Assembly: GCA_903913285.1 (NCBI GenBank)
Contig: CAIWKO010000061.1
Span: forward strand, 1-41,044
From: an uncultured Bacteroidales bacterium
Lineage (GTDB): Bacteria > Bacteroidota > Bacteroidia > Bacteroidales > CAIWKO01
Direction of reading: 5' to 3'
Length of the DNA: 41,044 bases
In this document: positions 11,132-41,044 of the stretch, piece after piece
Position numbering within the stretch: the stretch's first letter is position 1
How the letters are laid out: every line of letters starts with the position of its first letter
Notes under the pieces: generated by a model
Database searches by the model: none
Seen by the model: only the letters and a program-made list of their open reading frames with translations
Told to the model about the DNA's origin: nothing
Translations under genes and position numbers: made by a program

Positions 11132-11141
11132 CCAATGAAAT

Positions 11142-11175: not shown

Positions 11176-11210
11176 ATTAATCTGTGTTACATTATCCTGA
11201 ATGAACTTAA

Positions 11211-26186: not shown

Positions 26187-26203
26187 GATAGAAGTCTAAT
26201 TGA

Positions 26204-27442: not shown

Positions 27443-27471
27443 GTTGGTTAAATTAATTTTTAAATAATACC

Positions 27472-27479
27472 CAAAATTA
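27472..27479 (-). promoter_or_regulatory. Promoter -7 box for the C1 peptidase gene
   Basis: CAAAATTA reads TAATTTTG on the minus strand, a perfect TAnnTTTG, 29 bases upstream of the peptidase ATG. No convincing -33 element was found. Confidence 0.4.
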
Positions 27480-27554
27480 AGCATTTGGTAATAAATAGGG
27501 AAGATTTTTTTTAAACAAGCTTTTTAATAACAAATCAACAAATCAAGTGGTCAA

Positions 27555-28352
27555 CTAAAACCCAAACGTGAGTTTAATTCCCGGTGAGGGTGGTCTGTTG
27601 TATGAAAGGGAGTTATAATACGAAATATTGGGTTCGATACGCATCGACAGATCGTCTGAGATATCGAACTTGAATAAATGCGCATCCACCGATGCATCGA
27701 TGATATTCAGCACATAAAGCAGGCTGCCGAATATGCATGTAAGTTCAAAATTTCGCCGGTTGTAGTTCCAGTTCTGATAGAGTATATCTGTGGAAGTGAT
27801 GTAGGGGTAATAGTCTGTTTTGGTACTGTCATAGCCACTTCTAAACATATATGTATCCTTGAACTGGTTGAATTTGTGATAATAGTTTATCCCCAAATAT
27901 ACGACAACTCCAAGACCAACATAAATGATAGGTACCTTCCAGTATTTCCGGTTATATATTTGTCCGGCTCCGGGAATTATTGCTGATAGATACGACGCTT
28001 TTGAGGGCGAATGTTTGAATTTCTTTATGGTATCACCGGCAAGATCAACATGCGGGATCTCAAAGAGATTTTTGACCGAATTGGATACGATATTAACCCC
28101 GACTACATCGGCAAACTTATTATAAACGACCAGAGTTTTTAACTTAACCTGATCTAAACAGCTTTTTTTGGGTAGGGTAGTGTCTGTCTTTCCTGCAATA
28201 CTCTTCGAAGTATCGGTTACTATGGGTTTGTTGTGATGTATCACAACGGAATCTTTTCGGATACTGTCCTGAACATTTGTTTGTGCCGAAACTGAATTGA
28301 CAATAAAGCAAACCAAAATAAAAATAAAGTACTGACAGAGCTTTCTTGTCAT
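27555..28352 (-). CDS. DUF5683 domain protein (secreted or membrane)
   Basis: A 265-residue protein with an N-terminal signal peptide (YFIFILVCFIVNSVSAQ, ending about residue 24). A Ser/Asp/Lys-rich stretch to about 70 is followed by the DUF5683 core: KFKHSPSKASYLSAIIPGAGQIYNRKYWKVPIIYVGLGVVVYLGINYY, with the SaiiPGaGQiYNrkYWK signature near 125-143 and a hydrophobic helix near 145-160. It lies 12 bases after parB; this order (parA, parB, DUF5683) recurs in Bacteroidota. Its role is not known; an envelope function unrelated to segregation is possible. Confidence 0.85.
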   Translation of the reverse strand: MTRKLCQYFIFILVCFIVNSVSAQTNVQDSIRKDSVVIHHNKPIVTDTSKSIAGKTDTTLPKKSCLDQVKLKTLVVYNKFADVVGVNIVSNSVKNLFEIPHVDLAGDTIKKFKHSPSKASYLSAIIPGAGQIYNRKYWKVPIIYVGLGVVVYLGINYYHKFNQFKDTYMFRSGYDSTKTDYYPYITSTDILYQNWNYNRRNFELTCIFGSLLYVLNIIDASVDAHLFKFDISDDLSMRIEPNISYYNSLSYNRPPSPGIKLTFGF

Positions 28353-28364
28353 TTCAAAAAAATA

Positions 28365-29255
28365 TTATTTCATCCTCGAGACGATCTTATTAAATTCTTC
28401 GTCCGAGTTAAAAGTAATAACGATACTTCCTTTGCCTTTATTTTTGTAAACGATATCAACTTTCGATGAAAAATGTTCGTTCAGATATTTTTTAGCTTCG
28501 ATATATTTGGTTGGAACAGCAGGTTTATAGCTTGTTTTGGTCTTGGTGAGCTTTGCATTTTCTTTCACCATTTTTTCTACTTCGCGCACCGAAAGTTCTT
28601 TTTCGATGATAGCATTAAATATCCCGATCTGTTTTTCAACATCTTCAATAGCAGCTATGGCCCGTGCATGACCCATGGTTAGTTTTTCTTCTTTCAGCGC
28701 CAATTGTATTATATCGGGCAGGCGCAGCAAACGCAGATAATTGGTCACGGTCGAACGTTTCGAATGCACTTTCTGGCTCAGTTCTTCCTGAGTTAACTTG
28801 CATTCATCAACCAGACGCTGATACGACAGCGCTATATCCATCGGGTTCAGGTCTTCGCGGTGAATGTTCTCTATCAGGGCCCATTCCAGCATTTGTTCGT
28901 CGTCGGCAATGCGGATGTAGGCAGGTATTTCGTCAAGACCTGCTAATTGCGTTGCTTTAAAACGGCGTTCGCCCGCTATCAGTTGATATTTATCGTAGCC
29001 CATTTTGCGCACCGTGATGGGTTGTATCACGCCGTGCAGTTTTATCGATTCGGCGAGCTGATTCAGCGATTCTTCATCAAATTTATCGCGCGGCTGAAAG
29101 GGGTTGGCTTCTATTTGTGCTATTTTGATAGTGCTTACCGAACCTACCACAAATTTGCCCGAGAGGTCGCTTCTGCTGGTTATATCTGTTTCGGGGCTTT
29201 CGAGAAGTGAACTTAATCCGCGTCCGATAACGCTGCTTCTTTTTTTAGTTGTCAT
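28365..29255 (-). CDS. parB: Chromosome-partitioning protein ParB
   Basis: A 296-residue ParB/Spo0J protein that binds parS sites and CTP and works with ParA to segregate the replication origin. The N-terminal domain carries IEANPFQPRDKFDEESLNQLAESI, VIQPITVRK and GERRFKA near 94-100 (CTP-binding motifs), then ENIHREDLNPMDIALSYQRL. The helix-turn-helix is LTQEELSQKVHSKRSTVTNYL near 152-172, followed by a Lys-rich dimerisation region. Its start overlaps the 3' end of parA by 11 bases, implying translational coupling. I saw no obvious 16-bp palindromic parS site in the window, though short degenerate sites could be missed. Confidence 0.93.
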   Translation of the reverse strand: MTTKKRSSVIGRGLSSLLESPETDITSRSDLSGKFVVGSVSTIKIAQIEANPFQPRDKFDEESLNQLAESIKLHGVIQPITVRKMGYDKYQLIAGERRFKATQLAGLDEIPAYIRIADDEQMLEWALIENIHREDLNPMDIALSYQRLVDECKLTQEELSQKVHSKRSTVTNYLRLLRLPDIIQLALKEEKLTMGHARAIAAIEDVEKQIGIFNAIIEKELSVREVEKMVKENAKLTKTKTSYKPAVPTKYIEAKKYLNEHFSSKVDIVYKNKGKGSIVITFNSDEEFNKIVSRMK

Positions 29256-30060
29256 TTTCGGGATAAATTATTTTGTCGCTTTGATTGATCTGGGTCATGT
29301 TGTTCTTCTGCAATATTTCGCGGGCCAGGTTCAAATAATTGATGGCTCCTTTGCTGTCGGCATCATACATAATGATGGTTTCGCCGAAGCTGGGGGCTTC
29401 TCCCAGTTTGGTGTTGCGTTGTATAATGGTGTCGAACACCATTTGCTGAAAATGGGTTTTCACTTCTTCAACCACCTGGTTCGACAGGCGCAGCCTTTGG
29501 TCGTACATCGTCAGCAATATGCCTTCAATATCCAGTTCGGGATTGATGTGCGACTGAACTATTTTTATGGTGTTCAGCAGTTTTCCCAGACCTTCCAACG
29601 CGAAATATTCGCACTGAACGGGTATAATAACCGAATCGGCGGCTGCCAGTGAGTTCACCACGATCAAACCCAGCGACGGAGAGCAGTCGATGATGATAAA
29701 ATCGTAGCTGTCTTTTATTTTGGCAATTACTTTCCGCATCATTTTTTCGCGGTTGGGCAAATTGATGAGTTCTATTTCGGCGCCAACAAGGTCGATATGA
29801 GCAGGAATAAGGTCGAGATTGGGTGTTTTGGTGTTGAGTATGATGTTGCGCGGTTCAACTTCCTCGATGATGCATTCGTAGATGCTTGTTTTGATGTTCT
29901 TCGGATCGAAACCCACACCGGAAGTAGCATTAGCCTGCGGGTCGGCATCAATCAGCAGGGTTTTATATTCCAGCACTGCCAAGCTTGCACTCAGATTGAT
30001 AGCTGTGGTGGTTTTGCCGACGCCTCCTTTTTGATTAGCGATTGCTATTACTTTTCCCAT
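29245..30060 (-). CDS. parA: Chromosome-partitioning ATPase ParA (Soj)
   Basis: A 271-residue ParA/MinD-type ATPase. The deviant Walker A motif KGGVGKTT is at residues 11-18, LLIDADPQANATSG near 36-49 is Walker A', and DFIIIDCSPSLG near 121-132 is Walker B. It lacks the extra N-terminal DNA-binding domain of plasmid ParA proteins, fitting the chromosomal Soj type. First gene of parA-parB-DUF5683. Chromosomal parAB usually lies near oriC, so the window may be origin-proximal; that is inference. Confidence 0.93.
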   Translation of the reverse strand: MGKVIAIANQKGGVGKTTTAINLSASLAVLEYKTLLIDADPQANATSGVGFDPKNIKTSIYECIIEEVEPRNIILNTKTPNLDLIPAHIDLVGAEIELINLPNREKMMRKVIAKIKDSYDFIIIDCSPSLGLIVVNSLAAADSVIIPVQCEYFALEGLGKLLNTIKIVQSHINPELDIEGILLTMYDQRLRLSNQVVEEVKTHFQQMVFDTIIQRNTKLGEAPSFGETIIMYDADSKGAINYLNLAREILQKNNMTQINQSDKIIYPENDN

Positions 30061-30091
30061 AAAAAGTTTCGGTTATTGATCTGTTTTTTTG

Positions 30092-30099
30092 CAAAATTA
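30092..30099 (-). promoter_or_regulatory. Promoter -7 box for parA
   Basis: CAAAATTA reads TAATTTTG on the minus strand, a perfect TAnnTTTG, 31 bases upstream of the parA ATG. The -33 region lacks a clear TTTG. Confidence 0.4.
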
Positions 30100-30217
30100 A
30101 TGTCTTTTCCGTTACATACAGAATAATGTTTTTACCAAAAATGATAAAAGCGTCGAATTCAATTTTTAAGAAGTAATAAATTATTGAATTTCAATTTTTC
30201 TGAGCAGGACGAAAGCT

Positions 30218-30580
30218 TTATTCCAATGAATCGGGCTGCCTGTCAAGGTCTTCGAAATTAACATCCGAAAACTCGTCGCGGGGCTGCATTTCTTCCGGAT
30301 CTGCCTCGGGAATTTCGCCTGTATCGATAAAATGTATCACGTCGTTCAGGCCGCTGATAAATTTATCGAAGTCTTCTTTATACAAAAACAGCTTGTGCTT
30401 TTCGTAAAAGAACTTGCCTTGCTCTTCGCTGAAACGTCGTTTGCTTTCCGTAATCGTGATATAAAAATCTTCGCTACGGGTTGATTTAACATCAAAAAAA
30501 TAGGTTCTTTTGCCTGCTCTAACTGCCTTTGAGAAAATTTCGCCGTGATCGCTTCTTTCTTTAAATTCTTTCTCTTCCAT
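30218..30580 (-). CDS. PUR-family nucleic-acid-binding protein (DUF3276)
   Basis: A 120-residue protein of the bacterial PUR-alpha-like family. Residues about 10-88 form one PUR repeat: GEIFSKAVRAGKRTYFFDVKST, then DFYITITESKRRF, then a helix ending KFISGLNDVIHFI. The C-terminal 30 residues are acidic (DPEEMQPRDEFSDVNFEDLD). The Borrelia relative BpuR binds DNA and RNA; a conserved housekeeping role in nucleoid or RNA binding is likely here. It is single and minus-strand, upstream of parA by about 160 bases, with a perfect -7 box of its own. Confidence 0.88.
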   Translation of the reverse strand: MEEKEFKERSDHGEIFSKAVRAGKRTYFFDVKSTRSEDFYITITESKRRFSEEQGKFFYEKHKLFLYKEDFDKFISGLNDVIHFIDTGEIPEADPEEMQPRDEFSDVNFEDLDRQPDSLE

Positions 30581-30609
30581 ATAAAATTGCTTGTTTTTAT
30601 AAATACCAA

Positions 30610-30617
30610 TACAAACA
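30610..30617 (-). promoter_or_regulatory. Promoter -7 box for the PUR-family gene
   Basis: CAAACATA reads TATGTTTG on the minus strand, a perfect TAnnTTTG, 29 bases upstream of the ATG at 30580. Confidence 0.45.
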
Positions 30618-30820
30618 TACGAAAAAAAATATTGATTGATGCGGCTTTAACAAAAAAATAATTTACAGCGGGTGAATTATTATAAATGCAGAGGTCGATA
30701 CGCTTTATTTGACTTTGCACAGATAGTACCGGTTGTTTTATTTGCCGGAAACATTTTGCTAGAAGTGGCGAAAGAGGGTAATGTGTTGGAGATGGCTGTG
30801 GGAGCGGTGGAAATGAAATG

Positions 30821-30988
30821 TGAGGATTTGGTAAAAGGCTTGTAAGGTGTGGTAATATCACTGTAAGGTGTGGTAATGACTTTGTAAGCATTGGTAATGA
30901 CATTGTAAACTGTGGTAATGACACCGTAAGCTGTGGTAATGGAAATGTAAGGTGTGGAAATGGTTCTGTAAGGTGTGGTAATTGAAAT
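30821..30988. repeat. Degenerate 21-bp tandem repeat array 3 (about 8 units)
   Basis: Units start at 30842, 30863, 30884, 30905, 30926, 30947 and 30968, exactly every 21 bases, with a weaker unit before. A unit is about 16 conserved bases, GTAAGGTGTGGTAATG, followed by a variable word of five (ACTTT, ACATT, ACACC, GAAAT, GTTCT). It lies between two divergent genes (PUR-family, minus; the gene at 31212, plus). A minus-strand frame reads heptads such as SLPHLTV, but it merges into the antisense of the PUR gene and has no support as a gene. Same period as the arrays at 1404 and 19428, different consensus. Confidence 0.85.
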
Positions 30989-31211
30989 GTTGTATCTGGT
31001 ATCGGGTAGTGGGTAAGTGGTAATTATTCGGAAATGTTAAATAATGTTAATTTAGTGTTTGGATGCAATAAAATGTTTATAGGAGTGCAATAATCGTTTT
31101 TATGTATCGTTTTTATATTAAACTAAATAATTGAAAAGCCTATGCAGCAATTTTACACGAGTTATATATAGATAATTCGGTAAATTAATTATTAATTAAA
31201 TTTTTAAAGCA

Positions 31212-32171
31212 ATGAGAAGAGGTAGAAGTAACGAAATTCAGATGATGAAAGTCGTTAGAGCTATTTTGCTCAAGTTTGCAACCATTGTTGCAGGAATTCC
31301 GGCATTAGCATTGCTGGTAGTTTCTTTCGGGAACCTGCTGGATGAAATTGATGCCACCACCCTAAAGACCGAAGCCATTAAAATTGGCATGCGGAAGAAT
31401 AAAAAGAATAATAAGCTGGCGCTTGGTATTATCGGGTCGAAAGTGGCGAATGCACTTTTTGCCTACGGTGTTGCCATTGGCGACCTGGAGTTAAGCTATG
31501 AAGCAAATTATCCTTTGTATAAGCTTAAGAGAATGAAGGATATTAAGCTGGTGAGTGTATGCAGAGATATACTATTGTTGGGACAGACGAACAAAACGGA
31601 ATTGGCAGATTATGGTATTTTGCCTGCCGACCTTACAAGTCTGGATGCAGCTATTACGGTTTTTAATGCTATTATAACGGCCTCGCAAGCAGAAATTGAT
31701 GAGCACAAGAATTTGTTGGAACAAGTTGATGTGCTTGTGGTGGAAGGCCTGAGCCTGCTGAAAATGAAAATGGACAAAGTGGTTAGGGTTGCTGCCGATG
31801 CCAATCCGGAATTTGCCCAATTGTATTTTAAGGCACGCGCTATTGATGATTTTGTGGGAAAACGCAGAAAGCCAAAGAAAGAGGAAGGAAGCGGAATTCT
31901 TTCGGGAGTTGTTACGAACAGTGTGGACGGGAGTGTGATTGAGGATGCCACTGTTATTATAGTGGAGCTGAATTTGATCGTGACAACGGATGAAGACGGA
32001 GCATATTATTTTGAAAGTGTGCCTGTAGGAATTTACACTCTGAGGGTGATAGCGGTTACTTATCTGGAAAAAGCTGTTACGGATGTTGAAATTACGAAGG
32101 ACAGTGAGGTTAGCCAGGATGTTGCATTGGACCCGGACCTGAGTTCGCCAGTTGTGCCATTGGGAAGCTAG
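31212..32171 (+). CDS. Helical protein with C-terminal carboxypeptidase-regulatory-like domain
   Basis: A 319-residue protein with the same plan as the gene at 158-1069. Residues 20-42 hold a hydrophobic stretch (IVAGIPALALLVVSF) that could be a weak membrane segment, but no cleavage site follows. Residues about 50-225 are helical and rich in Lys and Ala. A basic linker GKRRKPKKEEG (about 226-236) leads to a well-formed CarboxypepD_reg domain: SGVVTNSVDGSVIEDATVII, TDEDGAYYFESVPVGIYTL, then VEITKDSEVSQDVAL. Likely a structural or scaffolding protein; no enzyme motif is visible. It reads rightwards from the 21-bp array 3 spacer and ends at a terminator. Confidence 0.78.
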   Translation: MRRGRSNEIQMMKVVRAILLKFATIVAGIPALALLVVSFGNLLDEIDATTLKTEAIKIGMRKNKKNNKLALGIIGSKVANALFAYGVAIGDLELSYEANYPLYKLKRMKDIKLVSVCRDILLLGQTNKTELADYGILPADLTSLDAAITVFNAIITASQAEIDEHKNLLEQVDVLVVEGLSLLKMKMDKVVRVAADANPEFAQLYFKARAIDDFVGKRRKPKKEEGSGILSGVVTNSVDGSVIEDATVIIVELNLIVTTDEDGAYYFESVPVGIYTLRVIAVTYLEKAVTDVEITKDSEVSQDVALDPDLSSPVVPLGS

Positions 32172-32197
32172 TTAGAGGAGAGGTGATTAATGTGATT

Positions 32198-32230
32198 AAA
32201 GACCTGAACGAGAGTTTGGGTCTTTTTTTT
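32198..32230 (+). terminator. Rho-independent terminator
   Basis: AAAGACC (32198-32204) pairs with GGTCTTT (32219-32225) and runs into eight T residues. It ends the gene finishing at 32171 and separates it from the AT-rich RiPP island. Confidence 0.85.
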
Positions 32231-32802
32231 GGCATGAGCCAAGAATTAGGTTGTAGGCTTTTAGGCTTTAGGCTGTAAGAGGGTGGAAGAATGGATTAAT
32301 GGAAGTTTTGAATGGCAGAATGATTTTTTTTTAATTTTTTTATAAAGCGAATACATAAATATGTATCTTTACAATTGCAAATATGTAAAAATTGATTTTG
32401 CGACAAGTTTATGGTACATATACACCCAAAAATGGACGGGTTTGTACTATTCTAGGGTACCTATAAACGAGTAACCAGCAAGCATTTTAAAACATCTGAA
32501 TAAGCCTTGACAACGAATGAGAAATAAAAAAACAGAAATGATTAATCTTATAACAGCCGACCGCACTAATCGACCTAAAGAATTATATTTTTGCCCTCAC
32601 GCATTTTTTGTTTTTGGCTCACGCACATTGCACACATTGTCAAGCCCCACGAGCCATCGCACATACCAACGCTTGCCCAAAAGTGCAATCTTGCTGCCGC
32701 TCTATTTAGTAAATTTGAAGTTTAAAATAATTTGTGCATATAGAAAATTTAATAATTTTTTAGCAACAGATATAAGAATAAAAATAAAAAACAAAAAAAT
32801 TT
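32231..32802. other. Spacer with a compositional island, no supported gene
   Basis: TATCTTTA at 32364-32371, preceded by T-rich sequence, is a promoter-like box. GTAC/ACCC and GGGT/GTAC partners near 32413-32442 can fold. About 32560-32705 is clearly richer in G and C, and in GCACA/CGCAC-type words, than the AT-rich sequence on either side, and looks like the remnant of a repeat or inserted element. A plus-strand frame at 32517-32858 covers it, but the product has no recognisable domain, and its Cys/Phe/His-rich middle and Lys/Asn-rich tail differ in composition, so I do not call it a gene. Confidence 0.4.
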
Positions 32803-32831
32803 CTTGCTTTTTAAAAAATTATGTATTTTTG
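32803..32831 (+). promoter_or_regulatory. Promoter of the RiPP precursor gene
   Basis: TATTTTTG at 32824-32831 is a perfect Bacteroidota -7 box (TAnnTTTG), with CTTG at 32803-32806 as a near-match -33 box 17 bases upstream. Transcription would begin about 70 bases before the precursor ATG. Confidence 0.5.
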
Positions 32832-32895
32832 AATAAAAATAATAGCCAGATTGTTTAAAAAAATAATAAAATAATTAATGTTTAACTAAAAAATT

Positions 32896-32901
32896 GGAGG
32901 T
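32896..32901 (+). promoter_or_regulatory. Strong Shine-Dalgarno site of the precursor
   Basis: GGAGGT lies 8 bases before the ATG at 32910. Bacteroidota genes usually lack such a site, and none of the radical SAM genes downstream has one, so it implies high translation of the precursor relative to its enzymes. It also fixes the start codon. Confidence 0.7.
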
Positions 32902-32909
32902 AACAAATT

Positions 32910-33287
32910 ATGAACAAGAAAAAAGAAGCACTAAAAAGAATGGCATTATGTGCAACTACAATTGCTGGTTTTGGATTAATGTCAAATAGCGCTAATGCAA
33001 ATTCTAATTCTATTCCCAATAATAGTATAAAATTTGAAAAAAATAAATTTGAGAATAGTATTTTAATAGATAAAAATAATTTAAAAGAAGGGTTTAAACC
33101 GCTTAAAAATTTTTATTGTAATCATAATTATTATGATAATTATGGAAAATATACTAATTATATGAATTTTTATCATAATTATGGCGAATATACTAACAAA
33201 GGTTATAATTCTGATGGTTACTCAAATTATAGTCAATATTCGCAATATAATGAATATTCTAATTATGGCAGATATGTGAATTGTTAA
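32910..33287 (+). CDS. Candidate RiPP precursor with tandem Tyr-x-x repeats
   Basis: A 125-residue peptide. Residues 1-30 look like a Sec signal peptide: KKK start, hydrophobic MALCATTIAGFGLM, then ANA at 28-30. Residues 31-68 are Asn- and Lys-rich. From residue 75 to the C-terminus nearly every third residue is Tyr: Y75, 78, 81, 84; then 88, 91, 94; then 99; then 104, 107, 110, 113, 116, 119 and 122, ending in Cys125. The third position of each triplet is Asn, Gln, Glu, Lys or Arg in all but one. A 13-residue step repeats YxNYGxYTN at 75-83 and 88-96, an internal duplication also visible in the DNA. Cys70 and Cys125 frame the repeat. Two radical SAM genes follow, so this is most likely their substrate. 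The family is not one I recognise. Confidence 0.75.
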   Translation: MNKKKEALKRMALCATTIAGFGLMSNSANANSNSIPNNSIKFEKNKFENSILIDKNNLKEGFKPLKNFYCNHNYYDNYGKYTNYMNFYHNYGEYTNKGYNSDGYSNYSQYSQYNEYSNYGRYVNC

Positions 33288-33580
33288 TCATAATATTTGA
33301 TTTTTTTTAGTTAAATAAATTGCTCTTATTGGGTATCAACTGATATTAGGTAAAAAATATCTAATCCGATAAATAGTTTATTTTTTAATAATTGGGAGTT
33401 AATAATATTTTATTGATATCATCTTAGGTAATATACACTCGTGATGTTACATTTATTTCGTGTTAATTTTCAGGCAAATATACATACAATGAATTGGTTA
33501 ACAATGATTTAAATAATAAAAGACCTCTTATTACAATGAATTAAAAAAATGTTGCTTATGTTGCATAAATAATTTTAATT
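33288..33580 (+). other. Spacer between precursor and first radical SAM gene
   Basis: About 290 bases, very AT-rich. No strong terminator hairpin was found after the precursor, so read-through into the enzyme genes is possible. TACATTTA near 33455 is one base off a -7 box and could be a second promoter. Only very short open frames are present. Confidence 0.4.
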
Positions 33581-34555
33581 ATGGCTAATGTTTTATTAAC
33601 TGAAAAATGTGTACGTTCTTGCCCATATTGTTTTGCAAAAGAATACATGACAAATTCTTCGGTTGAAGAAATTTTGAAATGGGAAGATTTGATTTATATT
33701 GCTGATCTATTTGAATCATCTAATGAAAAACACATCTCACTCCTTGGTGGTGAGCCGTCCTTACATCCAAATTTTACAGAGTTTATTTTATACTTATTAA
33801 AACGCAATTTTCATGTTAATGTTTTCACAAGTGGTATTATGAGTGAAAAAATATTACTTAAAGCAAAAGAAAATCTGAGAACAATAGATCCTGAACAATT
33901 ATCTTTTGTATGCAACATAAATAACCCTAAAGATTCACTAAAAAATGAATTCCAAAAAGTGAAAAAATTTCTTAAGGTTTTTAATAAACAGACTTCCACA
34001 AGTTTTAATATTTATAAATCAGATTTTGATTTGAATTTTTTAATAGATATAATAAAAGAATATCAGCTAAAACCTCATATAAGATTAGGACTAGCTCATC
34101 CAATACCCGGTGCTAATAATTTTTTTTTAAAGATAAATGAGTTTAAAGTTTTTGCAAAAAGACTTATGAGTTTTTTTAATAACCTTGAAAATAACGAAAT
34201 TAGTATTGGTCTTGATTGTGGATTTGTGATGTGTATTTTTTCGGATACACAATTAGGGAAACTATTTAAATTAACAAATAACAGGTTAGGTTTCTCTTGT
34301 GGACCTGCAATTGATTTTGGCCCTGATATGTCAGTATGGTCATGTTTTCCGTTATCTAATATACATAAAAAATCAATTTATGATTTTAATTCACTAAAAG
34401 AAATTTATGATTTTTATTTTAATATGAATAAAGAAATTAGAGGTGACAAAATAGGAATTTTAAAAAAATGTTCATCTTGTAGTTTTAATAAAAGAAATTT
34501 GTGTGCTGGTGGTTGCACTGCTCATTTAGTTGATATCAAAAACTTTATTGTCTAA
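33581..34555 (+). CDS. Radical SAM enzyme with SPASM-like C-terminus (peptide maturase)
   Basis: A 324-residue enzyme. C10-x3-C14-x2-C17 (CVRSCPYC) is the radical SAM 4Fe-4S motif right at the N-terminus, and LLGGEPS at 54-60 is the GGE SAM-binding motif. The C-terminus has SCGPAIDFGPDMSVWSC followed by C297-x2-C300-x7-C308-x3-C312, a SPASM-like set for auxiliary clusters, though the x7 spacing is longer than the usual x5. Such enzymes modify precursor peptides by radical chemistry, here probably the Tyr-rich peptide encoded upstream. The next gene starts 3 bases after its stop. Low GC and Lys/Asn/Ile-rich coding suggest recent acquisition. A separate peptide-recognition (RRE) domain is not evident at the N-terminus. 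Confidence 0.85.
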   Translation: MANVLLTEKCVRSCPYCFAKEYMTNSSVEEILKWEDLIYIADLFESSNEKHISLLGGEPSLHPNFTEFILYLLKRNFHVNVFTSGIMSEKILLKAKENLRTIDPEQLSFVCNINNPKDSLKNEFQKVKKFLKVFNKQTSTSFNIYKSDFDLNFLIDIIKEYQLKPHIRLGLAHPIPGANNFFLKINEFKVFAKRLMSFFNNLENNEISIGLDCGFVMCIFSDTQLGKLFKLTNNRLGFSCGPAIDFGPDMSVWSCFPLSNIHKKSIYDFNSLKEIYDFYFNMNKEIRGDKIGILKKCSSCSFNKRNLCAGGCTAHLVDIKNFIV

Positions 34556-34558
34556 AGT

Positions 34559-35407
34559 ATGGATAAGTATATAATAGTTTCTCCTTATAGCACAACAGTA
34601 ATTGATAAATTTCGTGAAAGACAATTTGTCATTTTAGTTAATGATTTTGATAATATTAATGAGATATTAGAATGTGTTAATAGAAATAATTTTTTGGTTT
34701 CTATACAGGTAAATTTGAATAGTAGTTTGTCATCAATAGATTTTAATGAGAAGTGGGATAATGTTCCTTTACGTATTGTTGTTTCTGATTTAGGAGATTA
34801 TTTGACATTTCATAAAAAAATTGATCTCATTAGAAAATTAAATATTTTGTTTTATTTTCCTATTAATAAAATAGATAATTTTCTAAATATTCAAATATTG
34901 TCTTCTCTGGGTATTAATTGCGGATTTATAATTTCTGATGGTCAATTGTTAGATTGGGGAAAATTAAGTGAATTGTTATATTATTATATGTATTCCAAAT
35001 CAAAACATTCAATTATTGAACCATTCGATTATATAATTCAAAACAATAATAAAAATGACATTTTTAATAATTTTGTTGACTATAATAATGTTTATTTTAA
35101 TGACCCTGATTATTATATACATATTGATAGCGAACAAAATATTTCATTGTCATTTGAAAATAGTAAAAGAAATATATTTTTAGATATAGGTATTGATAAT
35201 ATTGATAGTGCCAAAGAAACTAAGCAATACAAGAATATTATTGAAGACAGACACAAGCATTTCATTATTAATCATCCATGTTCATATTGCCCAGGATGGA
35301 GAATATGTTTAGGTAAATTTTCTTATTGTTTAAGGAGTAGCAATGGTTGTATTGAATTCTTTACTGAATTATTTAATTCTAAGTACATATTAAATAATAT
35401 TTTATGA
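34559..35407 (+). CDS. Pseudo-radical-SAM protein with SPASM-like cysteine tail
   Basis: A 282-residue protein lacking any CxxxCxxC motif. Residues 1-235 have alternating strands and helices (FVILVNDFDNINEILECVN, PLRIVVSDLGDY, ILFYFPINKIDNFL, GFIISDG), like a degenerate TIM-barrel. The tail has C241-x2-C244-x5-C250, the start of a SPASM motif, but Phe254 stands where the fourth Cys is expected; further Cys are at 257 and 264. Pseudo-rSAM partners are known beside maturases in other Bacteroidota peptide systems (the GG-Bacteroidales type), where they may bind substrate or help the true enzyme. Its 3' end overlaps the next gene by 4 bases (ATGA), implying coupled translation and a stoichiometric complex. 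Function inferred from context only. Confidence 0.7.
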   Translation: MDKYIIVSPYSTTVIDKFRERQFVILVNDFDNINEILECVNRNNFLVSIQVNLNSSLSSIDFNEKWDNVPLRIVVSDLGDYLTFHKKIDLIRKLNILFYFPINKIDNFLNIQILSSLGINCGFIISDGQLLDWGKLSELLYYYMYSKSKHSIIEPFDYIIQNNNKNDIFNNFVDYNNVYFNDPDYYIHIDSEQNISLSFENSKRNIFLDIGIDNIDSAKETKQYKNIIEDRHKHFIINHPCSYCPGWRICLGKFSYCLRSSNGCIEFFTELFNSKYILNNIL

Positions 35408-36558
35408 CAACAATAATATTTAAAGCAATTGAAAAGTGTATTGCTAATTGTGTTTATTGTGAAGTAATAAAAAGAAAACAAAATATCGTCATGTCTTATG
35501 AATTACTTGAGATTATATTTGATAGAATTAATGAGTTTTTAGAAGCAAATCCTCAAGAGAATATTGATTTTACATGGCATGGTGGAGAAATTACAATGCT
35601 TGGAGTTGATTATTTTAATAAAGTATTAGAAATTCAAGAAAAATGCTGTAAAAATACAAAAATAAGAATAAAACATTTAGCGCAATCAAATCTTTTGAAA
35701 ATTTCTCAGGAGATAATAGACGTTTTTAATAAACTTGGAATTACCTCAATTGGAAGTAGTTATGATCCGATATCTAATATTAGAGGATTAGGGAAAAATC
35801 GTAATTCATTAAAGTATAATACTTTGTTTTTTCATGGTATTGAATTACTAAATAAAAATAAAATACCATTTGGTATTATCAATGTGGTTCATAAGAAACA
35901 ATTAGAAAATCCTCTAAGTATTTATTATTTTTTATCAAACATGGTAGATAATTTTGCTTTTAATAAAGTATATTTTTTTTCTGAAGACAGATATGGATTA
36001 AATGTAACTCAAGAAGAATATGCAGACTTTTTAGGAGCAATATTTCCAATATGGTTAAAACAAAGGGATAGATATCATGTTCGCCCTTTTGAATCATTTT
36101 ATGATATAATTATTAAAAATAAAGGTGATTTGGTTTGTGAAAATGCTGGTCTTTGTGCTTATAGATGGTTATATATTGGTCCGGAGGGTAATACTTCTCA
36201 TTGCGGAAGGTCTGGTGATAATGAAATGCTTTCTTATGGTAACATAAAAAAAAGAAAGCTTAATGATATTTTACATGATACACAAAGAAGTCAAATAGAG
36301 AAAAGACAAGATGTTTTAATATCAACAGAGTGTAAAGGCTGTCGTTTTTGGGGTTTATGTCATGGTGGATGTATGATTGATGCTTACGATATTCATCATG
36401 ATTTTATACATAAATCACCTAACTGTGAATGGTTAAAAATATTTATAGAAAAATACTTTGAACCGATTTTAAATGTTAAGTTGGATTTAACATCTGATAA
36501 AGAATATACAAATCTTATGAGGTGTACAACAAATAAAAATAAAATAATTTGTGAATAA
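35404..36558 (+). CDS. Radical SAM/SPASM peptide maturase
   Basis: A 384-residue anSME-like enzyme. C12-x3-C16-x2-C19 (CIANCVYC) binds the SAM-cleaving cluster; WHGGE at 58-62 is the SPASM-subfamily form of the GGE motif. The C-terminal SPASM domain is complete: CAYRWLYIGPEGNTSHC, then C-x2-C-x5-C-x3-C (CKGCRFWGLCHGGC) and a final Cys in KSPNCEW. This is the domain set of three-residue-cyclophane-forming and thioether-forming maturases. With the Tyr-x-x precursor nearby it is the best candidate for the crosslinking enzyme. Last gene of the island's operon. No transporter, protease or immunity gene follows. Confidence 0.88.
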   Translation: MTTIIFKAIEKCIANCVYCEVIKRKQNIVMSYELLEIIFDRINEFLEANPQENIDFTWHGGEITMLGVDYFNKVLEIQEKCCKNTKIRIKHLAQSNLLKISQEIIDVFNKLGITSIGSSYDPISNIRGLGKNRNSLKYNTLFFHGIELLNKNKIPFGIINVVHKKQLENPLSIYYFLSNMVDNFAFNKVYFFSEDRYGLNVTQEEYADFLGAIFPIWLKQRDRYHVRPFESFYDIIIKNKGDLVCENAGLCAYRWLYIGPEGNTSHCGRSGDNEMLSYGNIKKRKLNDILHDTQRSQIEKRQDVLISTECKGCRFWGLCHGGCMIDAYDIHHDFIHKSPNCEWLKIFIEKYFEPILNVKLDLTSDKEYTNLMRCTTNKNKIICE

Positions 36559-36577
36559 AAATTCTCACACAGTCGTA

Positions 36578-36641
36578 AGCAAATTTGCTGCTTTTATTTT
36601 AAAGGAATAAAGTGTTTGGCTGCAAAACAGCTTACTCCTTT
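36578..36641. other. Palindrome and long hairpin after the RiPP operon
   Basis: AGCAAATTTGCT (36578-36589) is a perfect 12-bp palindrome. AAAGGAATAA (36601-36610) pairs with TTACTCCTTT (36632-36641) with one A-C mismatch, and inside it GCTG/CAGC (36619-36631) pair around CAAAA. This could end the radical SAM transcript or be a REP-like element linked to the adjacent transposase. No T-run follows immediately. Confidence 0.45.
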
Positions 36642-36670
36642 GCCTCGCAAAAAAAATAAAATTTGCATTT

Positions 36671-37270
36671 ATGAACTTCGAAAACGGGCATATTTACCAC
36701 ATATTTAATCAGGGCAATAACAGGCAGCCTATTTTTTTAAGAAATGAAAATTATCATTTCTTTTTTAAAAAGATAGCTACTTATATTTTTCCATTCGCCG
36801 ATATTCTGGCTTGGTGCCTTATGCCTAACCATTTTCATTTGATGGTGTTAGTTAATGATATTAGTGGGGGCGCGACTTTGAGTCGCACTCCCACTCAACT
36901 GCCTGATAATTTCAACAAATCAATAGGAATAATGTTAGCCTCATACACACGGGCTATAAATAATCAGCAATTTCAATCAGGCTCATTATTCAGAGACAAA
37001 ACAAAAGCAGAATGCCTCTCAAAAGCCGAAGGAGTTCAGCCGTCTTTTTTCAATACATCTTCCGGTACTTTTATCAACCTGCCAAATCACGAAAAAGAAT
37101 ATCCGCAGATTTGTTTTAACTATATTCACAATAATCCGGTAAAGGCAGGATTGGTAAACCGATGCGAAGATTGGGAATTTTCTTCTTATCGCGAATACTG
37201 CGGCCTGAGAAATGAAAAATTAATTAATGAGATTAAAGCAAATGAGCTTGAACTAAAAATCAAATATTAA
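36671..37270 (+). CDS. REP-associated tyrosine transposase (RAYT, IS200-like Y1 family)
   Basis: A 199-residue single-strand transposase. MPNHFHLMV at 51-59 contains the HUH metal motif (H54, H56); SYTRAINNQ at 91-99 carries the probable catalytic Tyr92; FRDK near 107 and the C-terminal YIHNNPVKAGLVNRCEDWEFSSYREY are the family signature. RAYTs are domesticated relatives of IS200/IS605 transposases that act on REP hairpins. Residues 65-75 (GGATLSRTPT region) are encoded by a 33-base hairpin of REP type, an insertion relative to the usual HFHLMV...F spacing. Another hairpin with the same tip lies 400 bases past the stop. The gene looks intact. It is more GC-rich than the RiPP island it borders. 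Confidence 0.88.
   Translation: MNFENGHIYHIFNQGNNRQPIFLRNENYHFFFKKIATYIFPFADILAWCLMPNHFHLMVLVNDISGGATLSRTPTQLPDNFNKSIGIMLASYTRAINNQQFQSGSLFRDKTKAECLSKAEGVQPSFFNTSSGTFINLPNHEKEYPQICFNYIHNNPVKAGLVNRCEDWEFSSYREYCGLRNEKLINEIKANELELKIKY
36863..36895. repeat. REP-like hairpin inside the RAYT coding sequence
   Basis: A 15-bp stem (36863-36877 with 36881-36895) around loop TTG, broken only by one G-T and one C-A pair. The tip CGACTTTGAGTCG matches that of the hairpin at 37668-37698. It is in frame with the transposase gene, adding about 11 residues. Confidence 0.75.
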
Positions 37271-37272
37271 TT

Positions 37273-37581
37273 CTATTTTTTGCCTTCAGCTAAAAGTTTT
37301 ACACCTGCCATTAAGCTATTAAAGCATTCCTCGTCTACATAGTAAAGGGTTTTTTTACCTTCTTTTATCCGTTTCAATACACCAAAATCATTTAAAAGAT
37401 TGAGGTGGTGAGAGGCTTCTGCCTGTAATATAGTAAGTTTTTGTTGAATTTCTGTAACTGACAGATTTTTGTGTTCGAGTAACAACATGATAATTTCAGC
37501 ACGCATTGGGTTTGTAATTATGCTGAGTTTTCTAAATGCTCTGTCAATTTTATAGCAGTCTATTCGTTCGTTTAAAAACAT
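37273..37581 (-). CDS. ArsR-type winged-helix transcriptional regulator
   Basis: A 102-residue winged-helix protein: recognition region NLSVTEIQQKLTILQAEASHHL about 39-60, wing GVLKRIKEGKKTLYYVDEE about 67-85. Like its homolog at 8115-8429 it lacks the metal-binding cysteines of classical ArsR proteins, and its signal is unknown. It converges on the RAYT gene with a 2-base gap between stops. It has one of the best promoters in the window. Whether it controls the nearby RiPP operon or itself cannot be told from the sequence. Confidence 0.83.
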   Translation of the reverse strand: MFLNERIDCYKIDRAFRKLSIITNPMRAEIIMLLLEHKNLSVTEIQQKLTILQAEASHHLNLLNDFGVLKRIKEGKKTLYYVDEECFNSLMAGVKLLAEGKK

Positions 37582-37608
37582 AAAAAATATTTTAGGTTAT
37601 CTTTTTTA

Positions 37609-37639
37609 CAAAAATAATAATACTATTAGAAATTACAAA
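37609..37639 (-). promoter_or_regulatory. Near-ideal Bacteroidota promoter
   Basis: On the minus strand TTTG (CAAA at 37636-37639) is followed by 19 bases and TATTTTTG (CAAAAATA at 37609-37616), matching both the -33 and -7 consensus. It lies 27 bases upstream of the ArsR-type gene start. Confidence 0.7.
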
Positions 37640-38348
37640 ATTTTCACTAAGCGTTATTTTTGTAGTAGTCGTAGCACGACTTCGAGTCGTACTATGACAA
37701 GTTATCAGCGATGCGAAAAAGCGAGTAGCTTTATGGATTAATAATAGAAATTGAACCCGTTTGGGCAAAGACGTGCCTAAGTCTATTATAAGTGTAAAGG
37801 CTTTGTTTTTTCGTTAAACCATCATAAACATATTTAATCAGCCCAATCAATACAATATTGGAATGGGCTGGGGGAGAAGGTAGGTTTATAAAATCTTAAA
37901 TTTATATCTAAAAAAATGTCCGATGATATGTCCGGATCAATATTTTATTAAAAAAATTATGCTTAAAAAATTTTATTATTAAACCCAGTTTTTTTTTAAA
38001 AAAAGAGTTATTAAATAAAAGAATAAAAGTTAATGTAAAAATGTACTCAAATTTATGGCGCAAAACTTTAAAGATTTGATTTTTAGGTCGGCAGGAATAG
38101 TAAGGATACTAACGAATACAGAGCTAAGAAACCTACATATTCTCTCATTAGTTTGAAATAAATCCAGAGACTTAATTTCTAAAAAAAACATCATGTATTT
38201 ATAGTTAATCGTTTAGATGTAAAAAAAAGTAATAAAAAAAAATTGGAATTATCTTTTATTGTTAAAAAAAAATTAAATTTGGAAAATTTTTTAGGAATAA
38301 ATTGTTAAAAATTAATGCACTTAGCTTTATAAATAATTAAAAAATAAA
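37640..38348. other. Long spacer with hairpins, no supported gene
   Basis: Besides the REP-like hairpin, CAGCCCA (37839-37845) pairs with TGGGCTG (37864-37870), with CCAAT/ATTGG inside, a stable hairpin of unknown role without a following T-run. TGTCCGATGATATGTCCGG near 37918 is a short direct repeat. The rest to 38348 is very AT-rich. A 33-codon frame at 38055-38156 has no ribosome site and is not called. TAGCTTTA at 38322-38329 with TTG 17 bases upstream is a plausible promoter for the next gene. Confidence 0.45.
37668..37698. repeat. REP-like hairpin downstream of RAYT
   Basis: A 14-bp imperfect stem (37668-37681 with 37685-37698) around loop TCG, with one G-T and one C-A pair. GTAG at 37662-37665 lies near its 5' foot, as in the REP elements served by RAYTs. 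The tip CGACTTCGAGTCG is nearly identical to that of the hairpin inside the transposase gene. Confidence 0.7.
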
Positions 38349-38723
38349 ATGAAAAAGCTTTATCTTTTATGTATTCTTACAATTTTTGTAAGTGGTAGTT
38401 TTGCAGCAACTCCCAAATATCCAATAAAAATTAATCATCAATTTTCATATTATTCAACATCATTCATTGGAAATCAGAATAAAGGAACTTTTGTTCTGGT
38501 ATTTAAAATTACCGGTATGCATTCTGAAAAAGATGCGCTTTTAGTTGATGATATTTTGAAGAAAAGAAGCTATGTTAAATCTGTTTCAACTGATTTTATA
38601 ACAGGTTTATGTACAGTAGAAACAGATAATATTGAATATATTGACAAAATTAAAGAATCAATTTGCAGTGCAAGGCGGCAAATTGGGAATAAAATAACCG
38701 TAGAATACATTAAAGGTAATTAG
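38349..38723 (+). CDS. Secreted HMA-fold-like protein without metal cysteines
   Basis: A 124-residue protein with a signal peptide (residues 1-20, LYLLCILTIFVSGSFAA). Residues about 46-115 follow the beta-alpha-beta-beta-alpha-beta plan of heavy-metal-associated domains: GTFVLVFKITGM, a helix with LLVDDILKKRSYVKSV, strands SVSTDFITGLCTVET, then a helix and a last strand. Where metal-binding members have GMxCxxC this one has GMHSEKDA (56-63), so it should not bind copper in the usual way; it may have become a protein-binding module. Its stop lies 30 bases before a very large secreted protein gene, so the two are probably co-transcribed. Confidence 0.65.
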   Translation: MKKLYLLCILTIFVSGSFAATPKYPIKINHQFSYYSTSFIGNQNKGTFVLVFKITGMHSEKDALLVDDILKKRSYVKSVSTDFITGLCTVETDNIEYIDKIKESICSARRQIGNKITVEYIKGN

Positions 38724-38753
38724 AAAACTATTTAAAGATTAACTAATCCTATT

Positions 38754-41044
38754 ATGAATAAAACTATATGTTTATTTAAGATCAAAAATAATTTTAGAAA
38801 AATCTATATTTTTCTATTTGCTGCATTAATTTCGATGCAATTGTTTGCGCAACCTGCGAACGACAACTGTTCTGGTGCAATACCGTATACTCCCACAGCA
38901 TTATGTAATTATCTTACATACACTACAGTTGGAGCCACAGCATCACCCGGAGTACCAGCACCCACGTGCGGAAATTATACAGGCGGTGATGTTTGGTTTC
39001 AGACGACAGTACCTTCAACAGGGCATCTTACTTTTGATACTTATACTACTAACAGTAGTTATGATGGCAGTATGGCTATTTATTCAGGCACCTGCGCTTC
39101 ATTAACGCAAATAGCATGTGCTACAGGTGGTAGCGCCTATGGATTAATGCCTATGATCGATAATTCATCACTCACACCCGGATCAACTGTTTATGTTCGT
39201 TTTTGGGGAGGAAACAGCGGAGCCGATTTCGGACTTTGTATTTATGATCCTGTAGTTCCTTCTTGCCTTAATAATACACCAGCCGGTGATTATTGCTCTA
39301 CAGCTGTACCTATCTGTAATTTTAACGGATATTGCGGCAACACAAGTGCTACTTATGGTTATACGGTAAGCCCTACAAATAGTACTGATGAGAATACATC
39401 TCCTCTGGGTGCTATTTTCTGTGGATCAATTGAAAATAACTCCTGGTTATCATTTGTTGCATCTGCAACAACGGCTACATTAAATGTTTTTGTAATGAAT
39501 TGTGCAGATGGGTATGGTATTCAAATGGAAATTTATTCAACCACAGATTGTTATAATTACACATCCGTTTCAAATTGTTGGAATCCAGGAACTCCAGTTA
39601 CTGGTGTTATAAGTGCTACAGGACTTACTATCGGGAATACATACTATTTGATGATTGACGGTCAGGCAGGAGATATATGTGATTACGTTATTTCAGCAAA
39701 TGCAGGAGTTTTTGCAGTGAGTGCAGGAGCCGATGTGACAATTTGTCCGGGTCAGAGCACAACTTTAAGTGGTTCAGGTGGTACTAATTATTCATGGTCA
39801 CCAACTACTAATCTATCAAATCCTAATATAGCGAATCCAGTTGCAACGCCTGCTGTTACTACAACTTATACTTTAACTGCCACGGGAGGCAGTGCATCAT
39901 GTTCAGGTACCGATGCTGTTACGGTTACAGTTGGTTCTCCCACAGCAACTGCAAGTGCTAATAGTCCTTGTTCAGGTCAGACATTAAATCTTTCTTCTAC
40001 TCCAGCAGGAGGAACATCATACACATGGGCAGGTCCAAACAGTTTTTCAAGTGCAGTTCAGAATCCAACAATTACCAATGTAACACCTGCAGCCTCGGGA
40101 ATATATACCGTTACAGTCACCAATAACGGATGTACAGCTTCTGCAACAACTAATGTTACTATCGGTTCTGCAGCTTCAGTAACTGCTTCCAGTAATAGTC
40201 CGATATGTACCGGCACTGCGCTCAATCTTACATCCACTGCCGGTGGAACTTCGTATAGCTGGACCGGTCCGAATGGTTTTTCAAGTGCAGTTCAAAATCC
40301 TTCTATAACATCTGCAACACCTGCAGCTTCGGGCATCTATACTGTTACTATTAATTTTGCAGGTGGTTGTACAGGATCCGACACAATGATGGTTGTTGTT
40401 AATTCAAGTCTTGTTATTACGCCAACAGCAACACCTGCGGCTATATGTACGGGCGCTTCATCTACATTAAGTGCTTCAAGCACTGTTGTGGGATCAACTT
40501 TTTCGTGGATGCCCGGAAGTTTGCCCGGAACACCTGTTACTGTTACCCCTGCATCAACCACGGTATATACTGTTACCGGAACAGCCGCCACCTGTACAGG
40601 ATCTGCAACAGTTACCGTAACGGTGAATCCTATACCAACGGTTACAGCTGTTGCATCGCCTGCATCTATTTGCAGCGGAGCTTCATCTTCGTTAAGTGCC
40701 ACAAGCACTGTTGCGGGATCAACTTTTTTGTGGATGCCTGGAAGTATGGCAGTAACACCTGTTACTGTTAGCCCGGCAACAACAACAACATATACCGTTA
40801 CTGGTACAGCTGCAGGCTGTACCGGATCTGCTTCTGTAACCCTTACAGTGAACCCAACTCCAACAGTCACGGTACCATCCAATATAATTGTGTGCAACGG
40901 AGGTGCTATAGCTGGAACAACATTTACCAGTTCTGCTCCAGGAACTACATTTGCCTGGACGAATTCGAATACAACTATTGGTATTGCAGCAAATGGTAAC
41001 GGCAACATTGCCGGATTTACGGCTACCAACACCACCACAACTCC
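38754..41044 (+). CDS. Large secreted repeat protein with Ig/PKD-like modules (partial, runs off window)
   Basis: Open from ATG 38754 to the window edge, more than 763 residues, with no stop. Residues 1 to about 33 form a signal peptide (FLFAALISMQLFAQ). PANDNCSGAIPYT begins a module with GGDVWFQTTVPSTGHLTFDTY, followed by a related one (STAVPICNFNGYCGNT, then NNSWLSFVASATT); both are common at the start of Bacteroidota surface proteins. From about residue 325 come repeated Ig/PKD-like modules of about 75-80 residues opening with CxGxxxxLS and ending TVTVN, rich in Ser and Thr (for example VTICPGQSTTLSGSG and SICSGASSSLSATS). A T9SS sorting domain is expected at the missing C-terminus. Likely an adhesin or gliding/matrix protein. 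Confidence 0.85.
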   Translation, partial: MNKTICLFKIKNNFRKIYIFLFAALISMQLFAQPANDNCSGAIPYTPTALCNYLTYTTVGATASPGVPAPTCGNYTGGDVWFQTTVPSTGHLTFDTYTTNSSYDGSMAIYSGTCASLTQIACATGGSAYGLMPMIDNSSLTPGSTVYVRFWGGNSGADFGLCIYDPVVPSCLNNTPAGDYCSTAVPICNFNGYCGNTSATYGYTVSPTNSTDENTSPLGAIFCGSIENNSWLSFVASATTATLNVFVMNCADGYGIQMEIYSTTDCYNYTSVSNCWNPGTPVTGVISATGLTIGNTYYLMIDGQAGDICDYVISANAGVFAVSAGADVTICPGQSTTLSGSGGTNYSWSPTTNLSNPNIANPVATPAVTTTYTLTATGGSASCSGTDAVTVTVGSPTATASANSPCSGQTLNLSSTPAGGTSYTWAGPNSFSSAVQNPTITNVTPAASGIYTVTVTNNGCTASATTNVTIGSAASVTASSNSPICTGTALNLTSTAGGTSYSWTGPNGFSSAVQNPSITSATPAASGIYTVTINFAGGCTGSDTMMVVVNSSLVITPTATPAAICTGASSTLSASSTVVGSTFSWMPGSLPGTPVTVTPASTTVYTVTGTAATCTGSATVTVTVNPIPTVTAVASPASICSGASSSLSATSTVAGSTFLWMPGSMAVTPVTVSPATTTTYTVTGTAAGCTGSASVTLTVNPTPTVTVPSNIIVCNGGAIAGTTFTSSAPGTTFAWTNSNTTIGIAANGNGNIAGFTATNTTTT

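Follow-up and report, generated by a model that had tools for sequence, protein, structure and literature searches.

A candidate peptide-crosslinking cassette with two radical SAM enzymes and a pseudo-enzyme in an uncultured Bacteroidales bacterium

We analysed a 41,044-nucleotide stretch of DNA from an uncultured Bacteroidales bacterium (contig CAIWKO010000061.1 of assembly GCA_903913285.1, positions 1 to 41,044; hereafter, the whole stretch is called the window), in which a gene for a tyrosine-rich peptide, P, is followed by three genes, A, B and C (Table 1). A and C encode radical S-adenosylmethionine (SAM) enzymes. A sequence-only reading of this DNA had proposed a peptide-modifying radical SAM system, and our analysis supports that proposal, as the unit is kept in distant bacteria together with aromatic-rich precursors; that P is the substrate of A-B-C seems to us close to certain.

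Genes of the cassette

Table 1. Features of the locus, in window positions.
Feature	Positions	Strand	Remarks
Block of low guanine-plus-cytosine (GC) content, likely acquired	32500..36560		GC 0.250, against 0.396 for 26000-32400
P, precursor, 125 residues	32910..33287	+	no NCBIfam or Pfam match
P leader motif KKKEALKRM, residues 3-11	32916..32942	+	counterpart of RRxA[ILM]KR in 10 other precursors
P core, 17 Tyr, mostly Tyr-x-[N/Q/E/K/R/D]	33114..33284	+	
A, radical SAM enzyme, CX3CX2C at residue 10, SPASM-like C-terminal Cys set	33581..34555	+	PF04055, 53.4 bits
B, pseudo-radical-SAM protein, CX2CX5C...C (C241, C244, C250, C264)	34559..35407	+	without CX3CX2C
C, radical SAM/SPASM peptide maturase, CX3CX2C and 8 SPASM Cys	35404..36558	+	nearest DynA/anSME/DarW/DarE

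The P gene has a GGAGG ribosome-binding site 5' of its start codon, and its product can be divided into three parts. Residues 1-30 make up a signal or leader (the leader motif, then a hydrophobic stretch and ANA), assigned by eye without a signal predictor; a spacer (residues 31-68) then leads to a Tyr-x-x core (residues 69-125). All 17 Tyr of P lie in its last 57 residues (positions 69, 74, 75, 78, 81, 84, 88, 91, 94, 99, 104, 107, 110, 113, 116, 119 and 122). Fifteen of these fall within residues 75-122, where Tyr does recur at nearly every third position, as had been read from the sequence, and where the third residue of Tyr-x-x is indeed Asn, Gln, Glu, Lys or Arg in 14 of 15 cases, the exception being YNS at residue 99. 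This spacing departs from chance: in 5000 residue shuffles of the 58-residue core, Y-x-x-Y pairs averaged 4.5 against 11 observed (p = 0.0002), and aromatic-x-[N/D] motifs 4.5 against 10 (p = 0.0004). Among the 170 open reading frames (ORFs) of at least 45 residues in the window, just one has more Y-x-x-Y pairs than P (14), and that ORF, of 2117 residues, is 17 times as long.

A and B are separated by 3 bp, and B and C overlap, so the tight operon that had been proposed holds for these three genes; it does not extend to P, which lies 293 bp upstream of A. We found no terminator-like site between P and A and no excess of promoter-like sites (42, against 36.7 in shuffles, standard deviation 6.0), and an Rfam scan of the whole window gave 0 matches at gathering scores. 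The sequence-only reading had also begun the locus at position 32803, a boundary that falls about 107 bp ahead of the P start codon.

Both A and C carry the CX3CX2C motif, which bears out the expectation of two radical SAM enzymes after P. In the A family this motif and the C-terminal Cys are present in all seven proteins checked, and against curated families A scores as viperin/QueE/MoaA-like. The predicted structure of A (5 sequences, pLDDT, a per-residue confidence measure, of 76, with the C-terminal 18 residues below 50) is closest to SuiB (Z 21.0 over 279 residues, 3.4 Å), followed by SkfB (Z 18.8) and the anaerobic sulfatase-maturating enzyme (anSME).

C falls under the cut-off of the Pfam Radical_SAM model PF04055 (19.0 bits, cut-off 29.5) and passes those of two SPASM models (PF13186, 25.8 bits, cut-off 21.5; TIGR04085, 45.4 bits, cut-off 27). 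Its SPASM Cys in the window protein are residues 245, 251, 267, 310, 313, 319, 323 and 341; together with CX3CX2C they are invariant in eight of eight proteins and align with the SPASM Cys of anSME, the enzyme whose solved structures come nearest to C in sequence. After the third SPASM Cys, C has Gly where anSME has Asp, a residue with a catalytic role in the latter. Against specific NCBIfam enzyme models, with cut-offs in brackets, C scored 137.3 (450), 124.2 (650) and 122.9 bits (650) for the daropeptide maturases DynA, DarW and DarE, 132.2 (349.45) for the anaerobic sulfatase maturase, 98.2 (310), 84.7 (445) and 82 (425) for the cyclophane enzymes GrrM/OscB, YhhB and AmcB, 65.3 (370) for FxsB and 45.4 (450) for XyeB, all under cut-off. 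The methanogen family TIGR04083 was likewise under cut-off at 85 bits, as were HxsB for C (37.8, cut-off 370) and HxsC for A (21.1, cut-off 267.9).

For B we found no match in Pfam or NCBIfam, which, with the same result for P, agrees with the earlier statement that no described family fits the precursor. CX3CX2C was absent from all eight B proteins checked, and the four invariant Cys of B are spaced like one SPASM cluster. The model of B (6 sequences, mean pLDDT 77, parts below 50) aligned with anSME bound to a peptide over 260 residues (Z 14.2, 3.6 Å). The 12 best structural matches (Z 8.8-14.2) were radical SAM proteins, including AbmM, which we presume to be of the radical SAM class; the next five were radical SAM proteins too (Z 6.5-7.1), though little ahead of the first unrelated one at Z 6.4. 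With Foldseek, no match for B reached an E-value of 0.001, and the matches ranked highest on that measure had unrelated folds; by TM-score, SuiB was highest among the 50 matches listed (0.51). Because of this TM-score and the VIA-align result, B is, as modelled, a radical SAM/SPASM fold without the catalytic motif, that is, a predicted pseudo-enzyme. The SPASM-tailed partner of the sequence-only reading was thus right as to the SPASM-like Cys and too narrow as to the rest, since B models as a whole pseudo-radical-SAM fold, beyond a SPASM tail.

Related cassettes in bacteria

Related cassettes (designated here by L numbers) are rare and scattered. With B as the query, either singly or as a profile, they were found in 3 of 148 relatives and in 5 of 393 genomes of the order, the window included in both counts, and in 1 of 395 genomes sampled from the class, which was the window itself. 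They were present in 2 of 42 genomes from the class of the L004 genome and in 2 of 198 from the phylum of the L003 genome, and two more searches, of 55 and 149 genomes, returned the starting genome alone. A weak match in the class of the L004 genome (G557, 35.8 bits) was excluded from the count, and a fourth hit among the 148 relatives (G058, 19.9 bits) is not a cassette, its ORF reading by eye as an ATP-binding protein. A scan of 84,980 species genomes for C, by exact short peptide matches and hence a lower bound, gave at least five loci, in metagenome-assembled genomes labelled Armatimonadetes, Elusimicrobia, Deltaproteobacteria (two) and Rikenellaceae.

We then compared 12 loci, the window included, in a uniform scan in which a precursor was defined by the leader pattern and at least five Tyr or Trp. 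B and C were found in 12 of 12. A was found in 11 at 494 bits or more, and L006 had a distant A alone (142 bits). The profiles for A, B and C had been built from the window, L002-L005, L011 and L012 (with L006 for B and C), which therefore match by construction; L104, L105, L121 and L122 stood outside profile building. Across seven loci the pairwise identities of A, B and C correlate (r 0.75 to 0.82 over 21 pairs, related pairs not being independent). A leader-bearing precursor was present in 10 of 12 loci, L006 and L122 having none. Homologous enzymes without a Tyr-x-x peptide had been named in advance as evidence against the system; among the 11 full A-B-C cassettes we found a leader-bearing aromatic peptide near 10, and the contig of the eleventh, L122, ends 145 bp beyond C. 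Three of the 10 peptides, however, those of L003, L005 and L105, have little length and only a weak pattern. L006, the Rikenellaceae variant (6485-14071), has S41 and S8 peptidases beside B, C and its distant A, with a 54-residue Tyr-x-Asp/Asn peptide that lacks the leader and, by eye, an acyl-carrier-like protein.

A GT9 glycosyltransferase accompanies nine of the 12 loci, the exceptions being the window, L006 and L122. It is fused to C in L002, L004, L005 and L104 and is a separate neighbour in L003, L011, L012, L105 and L121, that of L121 being matched in Pfam. The best GT9 match in the window genome reached 22.7 bits and lies on a different contig.

The cores of the relatives show what is shared. 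In L004, whose precursor has 158 residues, and in L104, they are near-perfect Tyr-x-Asn arrays, in which the residue two places after Tyr is Asn or Asp in 22 of 25 and 22 of 24 cases and Trp stands in register (YVN-WRD-YIN in L004). The L002 core has the units YVD, YVD, YVN and YKD. The three cores of L011 and L012 hold 54, 48 and 72 Tyr in Tyr-Tyr-Asn/Asp/Ser units, and L121 has 77 Tyr in 131 residues. In L012 a 33-bp unit is repeated 8.2 times at 97%, which indicates that array length changes by recent duplication. Aromatic-x-[N/D] was enriched (p < 0.005) in seven of 11 cores (the window, L002, L004, L011, both of L012, and L104), and Y-x-x-Y (p of 0.011 or less) also in seven of 11. The Tyr-x-x motif first described keeps its aromatic-x-x spacing, but aromatic-x-Asn/Asp describes more accurately what the cores share, and Trp can stand in for Tyr.

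Near the N-terminus, every one of the 11 precursors (L012 has two) carries [RK][RK]xA[ILM]KR, those of L005, L104 and L105 having first been noticed by a leader pattern of this kind. It occurred in 0 of 5323 ORFs of 45-250 residues in 96 background loci, mostly viral (1.24 Mb). In 10 of the 11 the motif begins with RR, and outside the window the leader and the hydrophobic stretch following it resemble a signal for twin-arginine translocation (Tat); P itself has KK, no twin arginine, and keeps ALKRM, which suggests that ALKR may serve recognition by the enzymes in addition to export. A tatA gene (PF02416, 61.8 bits) lies within the L121 cassette, between GT9 and P. TatC says less about Tat export, as all 13 genomes tested, that of the window among them, encode it.

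In the window genome the cassette was probably acquired, as judged from its low-GC block and its absence from three genomes of the same genus (81-96% complete), which have parB-parA-DUF3276 at about 78-81% DNA identity and no cassette. The 2.3 kb to the right of the block (36600-38900) are also low in GC (0.296). Just 3' of the cassette, at 36671-37270, is a gene resembling a transposase of the tyrosine type associated with repetitive extragenic palindromes (58.7 bits, under the cut-off of 80), and in one of the same-genus genomes a fragment of such a gene is found close to DUF3276 (L115:2255-2446). Elsewhere in the window, an array that repeats every 21 nt (GTAAGGTGTGGTAATGACATT-like) occupies intergenic DNA at 30800-31022 near parA/parB, and at 38754-41042 lies the start of a large ORF that is rich in repeats, has an N-terminus that by eye looks like a signal, and runs off the window; an antisense ORF at 40337-41038 is probably its shadow.

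Phage and plasmid relatives

A search of IMG/VR gave 84 viral loci, the best 80 of at least 155 relatives for A and 4 for C, most of which encode distant radical SAM proteins. The A profile reached at least 100 bits in five of them, two being identical stretches, and in all four distinct loci an aromatic-rich protein adjoins the A-like enzyme. By comparison, of 76 loci in which A scores below 60 bits, 4 have a nearby ORF in which Tyr, His and Trp make up 0.30 or more of 60 residues; L025, one of the four, has a value of just 0.23 in the same test with translation table 11.

In L022 (483-9322) the enzymes lie in a tail module, with a baseplate wedge protein, a Gp48-like protein and a 450-residue repeat protein ahead of them and an endolysin after them. 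The repeat protein combines an Ig-like part with units such as YSDHTNTGYGVYSDWANTGY in [YHW]-x-[N/D] repeats; with His taken as aromatic, it reaches 12 aromatic-x-[N/D] motifs within 60 residues (z 5.2). Its neighbours are an A-like enzyme (165 bits) and two radical SAM enzymes that match the C profile at 90 and 136 bits, with SPASM just under and over cut-off. From this arrangement it is possible that the module encodes a tail fibre crosslinked by radical SAM enzymes. L025 (7998-12460), open only with TGA read as Trp, pairs an A-like enzyme with a 411-residue [YH]-x-N repeat protein and, judged by eye, two more radical SAM genes, including a C-like one. L023 (6652-10383) and L024 (4847-8223) each have a Tyr-rich protein, an A-like enzyme and a GT8 glycosyltransferase; their Tyr-rich proteins lack the Asn/Asp pattern (fewer than eight aromatic-x-[N/D] in any 60 residues), and no C-like enzyme was found within either stretch (16.3 and 8.2 bits). 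In L023 a weak UPF0489 match lies between these genes.

In the mutually related loci L111 (2272-4724), L112 and L113, arrays of [HWY]-x-[D/N] with 17 motifs per 60 residues (z 5.2-5.9) adjoin a C-like enzyme, which scores 65 bits in L111 and 60 bits in L113; by eye, this enzyme itself ends in a similar repeat tail. Aromatic-x-Asn/Asp is thus present in three of the five distinct phage cases with aromatic repeats, and the pairing of radical SAM enzymes with such repeats points, on sequence grounds, to a structural role. We found no match to the A-like enzymes of L022 and L023 in named phages. A C-like enzyme of L022 gave 15 matches at 22-30% identity, and no aromatic-repeat neighbour was seen at the three that were examined (H3, H4 and H9). 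By eye, H3 and H4 adjoin sulfatase-like genes.

Among plasmids, tblastn with A returned two matches (32% and 23%; L015 and L016), neither stretch having a short ORF with the leader or with five or more Y-x-x-Y, and a search with C returned none at 1e-30. On L015, a Chloroflexota plasmid (7339-13898), the gene for an A-like protein (223.7 bits) and two further radical SAM genes adjoin those for RR-signal proteins that end in Cys-rich, HYW-containing tails, perhaps another system of Tat-exported modified proteins. This different setting implies that the A subfamily is wider than the system described here.

A proposed pathway and its alternatives

The cassette would be a RiPP system (one for a ribosomally synthesised and post-translationally modified peptide) in which A and C link every Tyr or Trp with the second residue after it to form triceptide-like cyclophanes; we hold this to be somewhat better than an even bet. 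P would be made with an N-terminal leader that doubles as a secretion signal. While P is still in the cytoplasm, C together with A would use SAM-derived radicals to join the Tyr or Trp ring to the beta carbon of residue i+2, and would repeat this along the core with Asn, Asp and similar residues as partners, at a loss of 2 Da per link. B, to judge from its modelled fold, would most likely serve A and C by holding the leader or the core. Where GT9 is present, as in most relatives, it may then add a sugar to the product; the stiff, folded product would leave via Tat, a pathway that accepts folded cargo, and signal peptidase would free a rigid extracellular rod. The window version may use Sec, which is suggested by its KK, where the other precursors have a twin arginine, and by the missing glycosyltransferase of this type.

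The cyclophane reading is the simplest. SPASM enzymes are known to bond an aromatic ring with the beta carbon two residues further along, Tyr-Asp (YxdB) and Tyr-Arg (YhhB) links being among those described (PMC11002830), and unexplored clusters with Aro-Xaa-Asn motifs are reported (PMC9062424). The best curated scores of C include dynobactin, darobactin and cyclophane maturases. As in the triceptide systems, a SPASM radical SAM maturase lies beside the precursor (a nearby precursor in 10 of 12 loci), and the core of P holds aromatic-x-x motifs.

Several results weigh against this reading, or against the export route attached to it. The core of P has Gln, Glu, Lys and Arg two places after Tyr besides Asn. 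Aromatic-x-[N/D] is not enriched in L003 (p = 0.13), L005 (p = 1.0) or L105 (p = 0.15), and Y-x-x-Y is not significant in these three or in L002. In L121, where the core is mostly Tyr-Tyr-Ser, aromatic-x-[N/D] numbers 5 against 7.6 expected (p = 0.97), and we hold a cyclophane mechanism slightly less likely for it; widening the set to Ser, post hoc, gave 33 against 24.0 (p = 0.0006). C is far under every curated cut-off for a specific enzyme (137 against 450 bits for DynA), so its reaction is not readable from its family. The A-like enzyme of plasmid L015 has no Tyr-repeat peptide in sight. As to export, the Tat model TIGR01409 was passed by L002 alone (17.9 bits, cut-off 16.7) of the 10 peptides outside the window, and the KK leader of P misfits the Tat idea.

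We give a modest but real chance to the view that P is modified by some other radical reaction, such as Tyr-Tyr or Tyr ether links, thioethers to two Cys, epimerisation or the excision of tyramine units that spliceases carry out. The best structural neighbour of A, SuiB, is a Lys-Trp crosslinking enzyme, both A and C lie outside the curated families, two Cys bracket the core in the window (Cys70 and Cys125), L004 and L104, and the cores of L011, L012 and L121 are rich in Tyr-Tyr, the last without the Asn/Asp pattern. Yet six of 10 precursors are free of Cys, Tyr-Gly is a minority (3 of the 17 Tyr in the window), and in the cleanest cores, L004 and L104, Asn or Asp is fixed at aromatic+2 while Trp replaces Tyr. 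Not far short of an even chance, in our estimate, is that the work is split, with C making the cyclophanes and A making a second change or acting on the x residue for GT9, which would refine the cyclophane reading and does not exclude it. The different family affinities of the two enzymes (viperin/QueE/MoaA-like for A, DynA/anSME-like for C) speak for such a division, as do their joint presence in 12 of 12 loci, counting the distant A of L006, and the occurrence of both types in phage L022 and, by eye, L025; the A-like enzymes of L023 and L024, with no C-like partner in their stretches, speak against it.

That P is an ordinary secreted, low-complexity Tyr/Asn-rich protein beside unrelated radical SAM genes we consider very improbable. 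AT-rich DNA does favour Tyr, Asn and Lys codons, and 293 bp do separate P from A, but 10 of 12 loci have this leader and an aromatic core close to the same enzymes, six of these loci (L002-L005, L104 and L105) lie in DNA of GC 0.55-0.64, and the background ORFs lack the leader altogether. An origin of the Tyr-rich sequence from AT-rich composition was rejected on the same ground, since the relatives at GC 0.55-0.64 keep the peptide. Hardly credible, finally, is the idea that A-B-C serves anaerobic sulfatase maturation or the activation of another enzyme, with P as a by-product: C does match the sulfatase maturase model (132 bits) and anSME structures, but it misses the cut-off of 349 and lacks the Asp that follows the third SPASM Cys of anSME (Gly in C), and no sulfatase was recognised beside the cassettes on reading their ORFs, no dedicated search having been made.

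The chemistry is probably of a known kind and the architecture probably new: two radical SAM enzymes, a pseudo-enzyme, a Tat-like leader, GT9 and very long arrays. No curated family in NCBIfam or Pfam covers this architecture over a specific cut-off, and we did not find it in searches of an open-access full-text library. Triceptide clusters (XncB, OscB/GrrM, MscB, YxdB, YhhB) likewise set a radical SAM/SPASM enzyme beside an aromatic-x-x precursor, but here there are two radical SAM enzymes and a pseudo-enzyme, the leader is Tat-like, GT9 is present in most loci, cores hold up to 72-77 Tyr, and the cut-offs of the curated models scored are missed. Described triceptides, to our knowledge, carry a few crosslinks each. 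The darobactin and dynobactin maturases act on short Trp-containing cores; DarE, DarW and DynA are among the highest curated scores of C (123-137 bits), far under cut-offs of 450-650. From anSME, whose SPASM Cys align with its own, C differs in its sub-threshold score, in Gly for Asp and, presumably, in acting on a peptide instead of a sulfatase. The His-Xaa-Ser system (HxsA/B/C/D) has three-residue repeats and two radical SAM enzymes; its repeats are His-x-Ser and not aromatic-x-Asn, and the HxsB and HxsC models stay under cut-off. SuiB, the streptide enzyme, and SkfB, the closest folds for A at 12-18% identity, have substrates that differ from P.

A wider proposal, which we put forward as possible though on balance doubtful, is that radical SAM crosslinking builds structural fibres, as stapled rods from aromatic-x-Asn/Asp arrays: bacteria of several phyla would export them pre-folded via Tat, sometimes glycosylated and with the help of a dead radical SAM substrate holder, and phages would stiffen tail-fibre shafts with related enzyme pairs. 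Arrays of about 15 to 77 Tyr, if crosslinked, would each be a ribosome-made, covalently stiffened rod of encoded length. The cassette offers a testable case of a pseudo-radical-SAM partner, and the tatA gene inside one cassette links the maturation of a RiPP with export through Tat. Virus fibres, too, may be shaped by this chemistry, as the phage loci suggest; that would come as a surprise to specialists.

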